64,000 nt of DNA from Spirochaetota bacterium (GTDB lineage: Bacteria; Spirochaetota; Brachyspiria; Brachyspirales; JACRPF01), in assembly GCA_038043445.1 (NCBI GenBank), contig JBBTBY010000007.1:1-64000 (forward strand), read 5' to 3'. Numbering within the stretch: position 1 is the first letter of the stretch; every line of letters starts with the position of its first letter. The notes beneath the pieces were generated by a model, which was given only the letters and a program-made list of their open reading frames with translations, was not told the origin of the DNA and did no database searches. The position numbers and the translations under genes are program-made. Shown in pieces: positions 38,992-42,506 of the stretch.

Positions 38992-39810
38992 TTATTTTTT
39001 TTTCGTCGGCTGCGTCGTCAGCACCGTCGTCGGCTTGGCTTTGTCATCCGCGCCCTTCATGGTTATGATGGGGTTGTCTTTCAGTTTTTCGGATATCTCG
39101 ACGAAATTCTCCGTTATCTTCTGCACGTTCTTAAGCGACGCGGTTATCTCCGCCCGGGCGCGCGGATCGTTCAGGAAATATTCGAGGTTCGATGCATGCC
39201 TGAGCTTATAGGTCAGCGCCTGTACATCCCCGAGTATCAGATTGACCTTCCCGTCGGGGGCGCTCAGCATTCGGAGCAATGTCTTGAATTCCCCTTCCGG
39301 GTCGTTTATCCATTTGGTCAACTGTGTTACATTGCCGAGGATCACATCGATGCCTTGGTTCTTCATGGTAAGATCATGTTTTTCCTTGAGCATCTGCCCG
39401 CGTTCGGTATCCGACGAAGGAAGGAAGGCATTGTTGCCGAGCCTTCGTGCATCCGGCGTGCCGGGATACAGGATAAGCTCACCGTCCCCGAAGAGAGGTG
39501 CACTTAACACAAGGACGCTGTCCTCGCGTACGCGGTCCGCGTATTCACCATAAATGATCACCTTCGCTTCCACTTTATTCTCTTCGTTGATCCTGTATTT
39601 TATGAGTTTCCCGACGGCAAGTCCCTGGAGCGTCACGTTCATGTTTTCCTTAAGCTTGTTCGCGCTCTTGAATTCAGTTGTAAATGCGGCTTTTGACCGC
39701 CACAGCCCCTTTTGTGTCGGTATAACGATGATGAGCGACATCACGATAATGAGCGCGGCAGCGATGAATATCGCCACGATCTTTTCCATCCGTGAGAACG
39801 TGTATGCCAT
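38992..39810 (-). CDS. mlaD: MCE-domain lipid-transport protein (MlaD-like)
   Basis: 272 residues; GGAGG precedes the ATG. One N-terminal membrane anchor (9-31), then a single MCE domain (about 40-115: FKSANKLKENMNVTLQGLAVGKL, SAPLFGDGELILYPG). The rest (130-260) is helical, with KNVQKITENFVEISEKLK, which fits a helical needle or coiled barrel in the periplasm, and ends in a Lys-rich tail. It forms a ring that shuttles phospholipids between membranes with MlaE and MlaF. The operon order is mlaE, mlaF, mlaD. The helical part is longer than in E. coli MlaD. Confidence 0.88.
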   Translation of the reverse strand: MAYTFSRMEKIVAIFIAAALIIVMSLIIVIPTQKGLWRSKAAFTTEFKSANKLKENMNVTLQGLAVGKLIKYRINEENKVEAKVIIYGEYADRVREDSVLVLSAPLFGDGELILYPGTPDARRLGNNAFLPSSDTERGQMLKEKHDLTMKNQGIDVILGNVTQLTKWINDPEGEFKTLLRMLSAPDGKVNLILGDVQALTYKLRHASNLEYFLNDPRARAEITASLKNVQKITENFVEISEKLKDNPIITMKGADDKAKPTTVLTTQPTKKK

Positions 39811-39828: not shown

Positions 39829-40569
39829 TTATTTGAACTCGGCTAAATATTCATCTGCTTCTGCCCGCTTCTTGAACTCCTCATAACTCCCGTCAAAACA
39901 GGGGACATGGTCCTTGAAAGCGATGACACGCGCAGCGAGGAACGCAAATTCGGATACTTTGTTGCAGACGGCAAGAACCGTGATCGGTATCCCTGAGGTG
40001 ACATAGCGGCATATTTCGTTCCTGATGAGCGCATCCGCCTGCTGATCGATGCCGTCGAATACAGAATCGAGGAACAGTATCTCCGGGCTGTGTATGATCG
40101 AGCGCAGATAATTGACGAATCGCCGCTCGCGCCCGGAAAGCACATTGGGACGCGCGGTGATGATGCGGTCTTTCGTGAGCCCGAACCGCGCAACGTGCTC
40201 AATGATCTCCTTCTCTATTTCCGCATCGCTCATATTCGTGTTGTATTTACGGTGCATCGCCAGGTTCTGATACGCCGTTCGCGACGAAAAAAGAGCATCG
40301 TCCTGGAATACGAACCCGTTCCTGCTTTTCATCTTCATGATGTCCGCTTTCGGCGACCGCACCGTGTCGATGCCTTCGATCGTTACGCTTCCCGAACGCG
40401 GATTGTATATCCCATACGCGAGCTTAAGGAGCGTAGAAAGACCTTCGCCGCTCCCGCCGACGATGACGGTGAATGTCCCGCGCGTGAACGAAAGTGAAAG
40501 CCCGTTGAAAATGATATGTGTACCGAATCCGAAGGTAACATCCCTGAGTTCTATCACGTTATCCTGCAT
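39829..40569 (-). CDS. mlaF: MlaF-type ABC protein with degenerate ATPase motifs
   Basis: 246 residues with a full nucleotide-binding-domain fold. The Walker A loop reads G38-G-S-G-E-G-L44-S-T, so the invariant Lys is Leu (codon CTT). The Walker B ends LFLD168-S169, with Ser for the catalytic Glu. The H-loop position is N203 (LAVCN) in place of His. The Q-loop (FVFQ89D) and a signature-like LSGRE (144-148) remain. It lies between mlaE and mlaD, so it is the MlaF equivalent, but ATP hydrolysis by normal chemistry looks impossible. It may be structural, or another ATPase may power the transporter. The frame is intact and overlaps are normal, so it is not a pseudogene. Confidence 0.85.
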   Translation of the reverse strand: MQDNVIELRDVTFGFGTHIIFNGLSLSFTRGTFTVIVGGSGEGLSTLLKLAYGIYNPRSGSVTIEGIDTVRSPKADIMKMKSRNGFVFQDDALFSSRTAYQNLAMHRKYNTNMSDAEIEKEIIEHVARFGLTKDRIITARPNVLSGRERRFVNYLRSIIHSPEILFLDSVFDGIDQQADALIRNEICRYVTSGIPITVLAVCNKVSEFAFLAARVIAFKDHVPCFDGSYEEFKKRAEADEYLAEFK

Positions 40570-41588: not shown

Positions 41589-42506
41589 ATGAAGAAGATC
41601 CTTCTCGTGTGCGCGGGCATCTTCATGGTGTCGGGTCTCTACGCCCTGACCAATGCAACGCTCATCGATTTCTCCATCACCGGGGATAAGGCGGCATTGC
41701 AGTCAAAGGATGACGCGGCAAAAAGCGATTCCGACGAGATCATGAAGCTCTCCGATATCTACAATCCGAACTGGGCGGTCGTGCTCAACGACTCGGCGCA
41801 GATGATAGAGAACAGGAAACTATCCTATTGCTCGGATGTAACGAGTCAGAGCAAAGGAAAGGTGCTGGGGGTTCGGATACATTTCCCCACTGCTCCTTGG
41901 AACAGCTACGGTCTTGTAAAACCCCCGTTCGAATTCGAAATTTACGGCGGACCTGATGGCACCCGTTTCATGGACGGCAAGGGTGTTCTGAAGAATGTCG
42001 GGACCATACGGTCCATCAGTTCATGGGTATGCGGCCGGAACTATGTGGTAAATTACATCGTCAATATAAAGAACGACCAGGAAGCGGTCAGCGCCCACTC
42101 TCTCGGCTATCTCAATTTCGTCGGCTGGAGCCAGGTGAAATGGGATAACCCGAATTACCTTGCCAATGCACGTGACCGTGTACTGCGCCGCGTGCCGCTC
42201 TATCCGAGAAGCACGCCGTCCGTCAAACTGGACTCACTGCAGTTCTATCGCACTGCGGACAATCTCGGCGGCAATTTCGTGGCATACGTAAAGGACGTTG
42301 CTATGGAATTCGAAGAAGCGGTCATCGACAAGGATGCCGACATCGATGATGAAGGCGTGTGGGGCATTTTGAAGGCGGAAAGTGATCGCAAAAAAGCCCT
42401 TGAGAACAGGCGCCTCAAGGAGATACGCGAACTTCGCGATCTCGAAGAGCGCCGCATCGCCGGGTCCGCAAAGGGCTCGACTTCAACGGCTTCGACGAAC
42501 AAATAA
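41589..42506 (+). CDS. flaA: Periplasmic flagellar filament outer-layer protein FlaA
   Basis: 305 residues with a signal peptide (1-19, cut near LYALT). The body follows the spirochaetal FlaA pattern: LGVRIHFPTAPWNSYGLVKPPFEFEIYGG, GVLKNVGTIRSISSWVCGRNY, LGYLNFVGWSQVKWDNPNYL, LYPRSTPSVKLDSLQFYRTAD, GGNFVAYVKDVAMEFEEAV. The last 50 residues are a charged helix (RRLKEIRELRDLEERR) then a Ser/Thr tail, longer than I expect for FlaA. FlaA sheathes the FlaB core of periplasmic flagella and is specific to spirochaetes. It is monocistronic, with its own promoter and terminator. Confidence 0.88.
   Translation: MKKILLVCAGIFMVSGLYALTNATLIDFSITGDKAALQSKDDAAKSDSDEIMKLSDIYNPNWAVVLNDSAQMIENRKLSYCSDVTSQSKGKVLGVRIHFPTAPWNSYGLVKPPFEFEIYGGPDGTRFMDGKGVLKNVGTIRSISSWVCGRNYVVNYIVNIKNDQEAVSAHSLGYLNFVGWSQVKWDNPNYLANARDRVLRRVPLYPRSTPSVKLDSLQFYRTADNLGGNFVAYVKDVAMEFEEAVIDKDADIDDEGVWGILKAESDRKKALENRRLKEIRELRDLEERRIAGSAKGSTSTASTNK

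Follow-up and report, generated by a model that had tools for sequence, protein, structure and literature searches.

Whether lipid movement by Mla-type complexes is passive or requires ATP, and which way it runs, has been a matter of debate. In E. coli the MlaF variants K47A and E170Q fail to complement (PMC7367683) and K47R has no ATPase activity (PMC5016091); lipid passes spontaneously from MlaD to MlaC, a transfer that ATP hydrolysis blocks (PMC10212509), and Pqi (PMC12436622) and Let (PMC10897342) are MCE systems without an ATPase. A phylogenomic survey reported a wide distribution of MlaEFD, and the part of that article available to us makes no mention of catalytic loss in MlaF (PMC10665443). 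Targeted searches of the open-access literature likewise returned no published report of a degenerate or dead MlaF or of a spirochaete Mla system. Here we describe such a protein from a 64,000-nucleotide stretch, hereafter the window, of contig JBBTBY010000007.1 (assembly GCA_038043445.1, a Spirochaetota bacterium of the order Brachyspirales). An mlaE2-mlaF2-mlaD2 operon in the window constitutes a second Mla-type system beside an intact canonical Mla set, and its ATP-binding cassette (ABC) subunit, MlaF2, has lost the Walker A Lys, the Walker B Glu and the H-loop His. The gene and the affected positions are as follows.

39829 to 40569, minus strand: MlaF2, an MlaF-type ABC subunit without Walker A Lys, Walker B Glu and H-loop His (putative pseudo-ATPase); open reading frame, Pfam ABC_tran, AlphaFold
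40438 to 40440, minus strand: codon CTT, Leu44 at the Walker A Lys position (GGSGEG-L-ST); sequence and alignments
40126 to 40140, minus strand: degraded ABC signature, L144-S-G-R-E148 (LSGRE; consensus LSGGQ); alignments
40063 to 40065, minus strand: codon TCT, Ser169 at the position of the Walker B catalytic Glu (LFLD-S); sequence and alignments
39961 to 39963, minus strand: codon AAC, Asn203 at the H-loop His position; sequence and alignments

The mlaF2 gene encodes 246 amino acids in an uninterrupted frame, and in an alignment with MlaF relatives Leu44, Ser169 and Asn203 fall in the Lys, Glu and His columns, as a preliminary description of the window had stated. At least five base changes are required to turn Lys, Glu and His codons into CTT, TCT and AAC, so that a base-calling error is not credible, and errors of assembly or base calling are ruled out by a 59% identical ortholog that carries the same changes. 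In place of the catalytic set of Walker A Lys, Walker B Glu, H-loop His and LSGGQ signature, MlaF2 thus presents L44, S169, N203 and LSGRE; the signature had been described as kept, which was mistaken, and the Q-loop had been described as kept, which is correct (Q89). Also retained are the P-loop glycines G41 and G43, S45, the Walker B Asp D168 and D175 of the D-loop. MlaF2 passes the Pfam ABC_tran model (75.9 bits against a cut-off of 25) and fails the NCBIfam MlaF equivalog PRK11831, which is tuned to the proteobacterial proteins (81.9 bits against a cut-off of 441). Its profile matches, fold and neighbouring genes place the protein in the ABC and MlaF lineages, yet it fails the catalytic part of their definition. 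Since the 21 other ABC domains parsed from the window genome all have the Walker A Lys (21/21) and the same loss pattern recurs in two other genomes, the losses in MlaF2 are more than chance.

The first of these genomes (G001) belongs to another genus of the same family, and its ortholog, the 59% identical protein mentioned above, has Leu, Ser and Ser at the three positions and the signature MNNRE. The second (G024) belongs to another family of the order and has Met and Asp at the Lys and Glu positions and the signature LTPSE; its His lies one residue off the H column, which makes the H state alignment-dependent. The triple loss is common to two genera of one family, and because the member of the other family is also without Lys and Glu, the alignments place the loss of these two residues before the split of the two families. 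The expectation that the residues are lost throughout the clade was thus borne out in G001 and, for Lys and Glu, in G024, and a search for near relatives whose Walker A is intact at the locus found none. A scan of named genome records yielded two matches only, both distant and proteobacterial. In G024 three MlaD-like genes follow MlaF2 in a row (L231:5483-8189), and a longer or mixed MCE assembly is possible there. The 26 Brachyspira-like genomes (g3) and two g4 genomes of the order have the canonical MlaE only, one g3 genome showing a further match below the cut-off (MlaE copy numbers, here and below, depend on one profile).

MlaF2 is not a dying gene. Between the window genome and G001 its ratio of non-synonymous to synonymous substitution rates (dN/dS) is 0.19, at a dS of 1.7, which is near saturation; values for MlaF1, MlaE1, MlaE2 and MlaD2 in the same genome pair are 0.15-0.20, and MlaF2 is under purifying selection at a level matching that of the intact MlaF1 of the same genome. 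AlphaFold, using a 62-sequence alignment, predicts a confident MlaF fold (predicted local distance difference test, pLDDT, 96.4; predicted template-modelling score, pTM, 0.92). More than 1000 PDB matches to the model at E <= 0.001 reflect the ABC fold, and ranks 1-6 are MlaF chains, the best being E. coli MlaF in 6xgz and 6xbd with a template-modelling score of about 0.85. A decaying operon left over next to a functional canonical Mla system would be in line with the loss of the entire second system from the Brachyspira-like genomes, but this is very improbable given the open frames, the dN/dS near 0.19, the 59% identity of orthologs from different genera, the integrity of MlaE2 and MlaD2, the confident fold and the order-level age of the loss. 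The earlier argument against sequencing error or simple decay is upheld by the shared losses of the orthologs, the selection estimate and the predicted fold.

The loss in the window is part of a recurrent, phylum-wide erosion of the MlaF paralog, in which, according to the trees and alignments, Lys was lost twice independently; this context had escaped the preliminary description. A search with MlaE2 detected MlaE in 231 of 393 genomes of the phylum, and the E-F-D order is retained across most of it. Motif states were counted at the 108 loci with an MlaF2-type gene adjacent to MlaE: Lys, Glu and His are all kept in 44, Lys is absent from 21 (one of which has Arg), Glu from 45 and His from 60, and all three residues are gone in 20, one of them with a gapped His column. 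Parsimony on the MlaE tree gives 2 changes for Lys, 12 for Glu and 11 for His, counts that depend on a quickly built tree. A single origin of all Lys-less MlaF2 proteins was rejected by the approximately unbiased (AU) test (p = 8e-5), and in the MlaF tree the two Lys-less groups are separate from each other and both apart from MlaF1. The second Lys-less clade comprises 17 genomes from seven families and is far more divergent, with FGPExSG at Walker A and EHALExQ at Walker B; its MlaE may represent a separate paralog group. Nevertheless, a tested member passes Pfam ABC_tran (37 bits), the predicted structure is an MlaF fold (pLDDT 87.6, best match 6xbd), and the protein is conserved (59% mean column identity; dN/dS 0.18 at dS 0.32). 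Its most conserved part is the stretch comprising the Q-loop and coupling groove (0.68, versus 0.64 for the P-loop), whereas intact relatives show the opposite pattern (0.54 versus 0.70). The preservation of this stretch in the clade where erosion has gone furthest agrees with a structural role beneath MlaE.

Nearest to this divergent clade on the MlaE tree are families f17 and f36, in which Lys is mostly kept and most other motifs are lost. An apparent loss of the ATPase gene in these families and in G049, none of which has MlaF beside MlaE, was dropped when MlaF was found unlinked, in f17 and f36 beside MlaD. Seven loci with MlaF beside MlaD and away from MlaE (L270-L276, in G143, G097, G074, G163, G092, G080 and G046) represent an intermediate stage, Lys being mostly kept and the Q-loop, signature, Walker B and H-loop eroded. 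In a further set of spirochaete genomes one MlaE alone was detected, and the MlaF adjacent to it has Lys and lacks His and, in most, Glu (L127, L129, L137, L138, L142-L145, L149, L151 and L157 in f32; L140 and L148 in f44; L152 in f48; L128 in f52); their sole Mla ATPase may be impaired. In G047, two equal-scoring MlaE2-MlaF2 copies on different contigs (C18:9580-11162 and C25:3294-4876) are either a duplication or an assembly duplicate.

In the window, mlaF2 adjoins mlaE2 upstream and mlaD2 downstream, and the gene order runs from the divergent flaA through mlaE2, mlaF2 and mlaD2 to recG. The flaA gene speaks for a spirochaete source of the DNA.

41589 to 42506: FlaA flagellar outer-layer protein, divergent from the mlaE2-mlaF2-mlaD2 operon; Pfam PF04620, 204.6 bits
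40576 to 41559, minus strand: MlaE2, an MlaE-type permease, whose translation possibly begins at an internal ATG (41388), close to where the ortholog starts; Pfam MlaE, ortholog, start candidates
38992 to 39810, minus strand: MlaD2, with an N-terminal transmembrane helix, one MCE domain and a C-terminal tail; Pfam MlaD, ortholog, ribosome-binding site GGAGG

The partners are normal, as had been proposed: MlaE2 scores 160 bits with Pfam MlaE (cut-off 22.5) and MlaD2 35 bits with Pfam MlaD (cut-off 25.1), and they are 70-71% and 51% identical, respectively, to the G001 orthologs; MlaE2 falls below the narrower TIGR00056 cut-off (132.9 versus 212.2). Elsewhere the window genome encodes an intact MlaF1 (C49; motifs GRSGCGKS, LSGGM, DEP and THD), MlaE1 (C130) and MlaD1 (C47), so that the second MlaF-type ATPase anticipated earlier does exist. 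MlaA was not detected in this genome, MlaC is represented by a weak MlaC-like match only, and the operon lacks MlaB. With E. coli MlaFEDB the operon shares the fold, the subunit set and the presence of MlaE and MlaD partners in one operon; it differs in these missing components and in that MlaF2, 26% identical to E. coli MlaF, is without Lys, Glu, His or a clean signature. The minimal MlaEFD transenvelope bridge of Veillonella parvula is similar in being a three-gene E-F-D operon without MlaA, MlaB and MlaC in the operon, and in having an MlaD longer than that of E. coli (183 amino acids); at 419 amino acids it is longer still than MlaD2 (272) (PMC10665443).

ATP sites of ABC proteins are composite, formed by the Walker motifs of one subunit and the signature of the other. 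This bears on the suggestion, raised before, that another ATPase powers the permease: MlaF1 could drive MlaE2 either by taking the place of MlaF2 or by pairing with it in a mixed dimer that has a single working site. Each of the three genomes does encode an intact MlaF, and many heterodimeric ABC transporters have a single dead site (PMC7756269). One such half-transporter is found in the window genome itself, an exporter half with DD at Walker B and Gln at the H-loop (L259, C15) that lies beside another half-transporter and resembles a classical degenerate-site pair. In such heterodimers the subunit with dead Walker motifs gives an intact signature to its active partner, whereas the MlaF1 Walker motifs would have to use the MlaF2 signature (LSGRE, MNNRE or LTPSE), leaving both composite sites incomplete. 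The corrected signature state thus counts against a mixed dimer. Moreover, the two proteins are only about 26% identical, MlaF2 travels with MlaE2 and MlaD2 and not with MlaF1, and its conservation would be unexpected if it were displaced. We therefore consider it distinctly unlikely that MlaF1 powers MlaE2. A partner ATPase encoded within the same operon was rejected, none being found in 14 enlarged loci. The degenerate-site exporters (TAP, CFTR, TM287/288, TmrAB, ABCG5/G8) resemble MlaF2 in the loss of the Walker B Glu, which is replaced by Ser in CFTR, and often in H-loop changes (PMC7756269). They differ in that one site stays active in the heterodimer or full-length protein; the MlaF2 subunit is encoded by a single gene, and a homodimer of it would contain no live site.

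By analogy to the E. coli mutants, MlaF2 is probably without ATPase activity. The preliminary description held that known MlaF proteins need all three residues; the mutants bear this out for Lys and Glu, and those papers do not cover His. The dead sites, the degraded signature, the ATP-free transfer from MlaD to MlaC and the ATPase-less Pqi and Let systems favour a non-hydrolysing MCE lipid conduit in which MlaF2 is a structural pseudo-ATPase clamping MlaE2, a reading to which we give somewhat better than even chances. MlaF2 is predicted to retain the MlaF fold and the groove expected to receive the coupling helix of MlaE2, and its homodimer, expected by analogy to E. coli MlaF, would have no competent ATP site. 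The clamp would assemble the MlaE2 dimer beneath the MlaD2 MCE ring and keep it open to the ring, and phospholipid would pass through MlaE2 and MlaD2 down its own gradient without ATP hydrolysis, most likely from the inner to the outer membrane. PqiABC and LetAB are comparable as MCE lipid conduits without an ATPase subunit (PMC12436622, PMC10897342). Their inner-membrane partners, however, are PqiA and LetA, not MlaE, and they have no ABC subunit, whereas the window operon conserves a dead one.

Several observations weigh against the clamp. The proposal, in which our confidence is moderate, is built on sequence analysis and a single-subunit model. All 20 genomes with a residue other than Lys or Arg at the Walker A position (20/20) have at least one further MlaE, and the actual work could fall to the intact system. 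In the window genome, G001 and G024 it is the P-loop, not the coupling groove, that is most conserved, so that the reversal seen in the divergent clade is absent. Finally, the P-loop glycines, S45, Q89 and D168 are all retained in the window lineage, magnesium-binding residues among them, which leaves room for nucleotide binding without hydrolysis. MlaF2 might then gate MlaE2 as a sensor, ATP or another nucleotide closing the dimer and switching the conduit without a cycle. Retention of the P-loop glycines, S45, the Q-loop Gln and the Walker B Asp in both genera and the conserved P-loop of the trio speak for such a sensor, and degenerate sites of heterodimeric exporters retain ATP for minutes (PMC7756269). 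However, Leu or Met stands in place of the Lys that contacts the beta and gamma phosphates, and all three genomes have a degraded form of the signature, the motif with which the opposite subunit clamps ATP. In the other Lys-less clade the gene persists although its P-loop, Q-loop and Walker B can no longer be recognized. We regard a sensor as unlikely, if worth serious thought. Hydrolysis by a new catalytic mechanism that dispenses with the three residues has a single point in its favour, namely that the lack of activity of MlaF2 is a prediction. With these residues and the signature gone, and with substitutes that differ between relatives and hence reveal no conserved replacement set, it is highly improbable.

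More broadly, we see about an even chance that spirochaetes have repeatedly converted an ATP-driven MCE lipid transporter to an ATP-independent conduit and kept the former motor under selection as an obligatory structural subunit, in a homodimeric ABC transporter without a working ATP site. If true, this would be a homodimeric ABC transporter with both ATP sites dead whose subunit is still conserved. The case also cautions that an entire clade may be misannotated when an ABC protein is labelled an ATPase. Native MlaF proteins range from intact to fully dead while MlaE and MlaD persist in their operons, and with this natural series passive and ATP-driven transport, and its direction, can be tested without recourse to mutants. 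The conservation of a motor subunit without the residues that burn ATP suggests that, in these spirochaetes, lipids may cross the envelope bridge without ATP as fuel.
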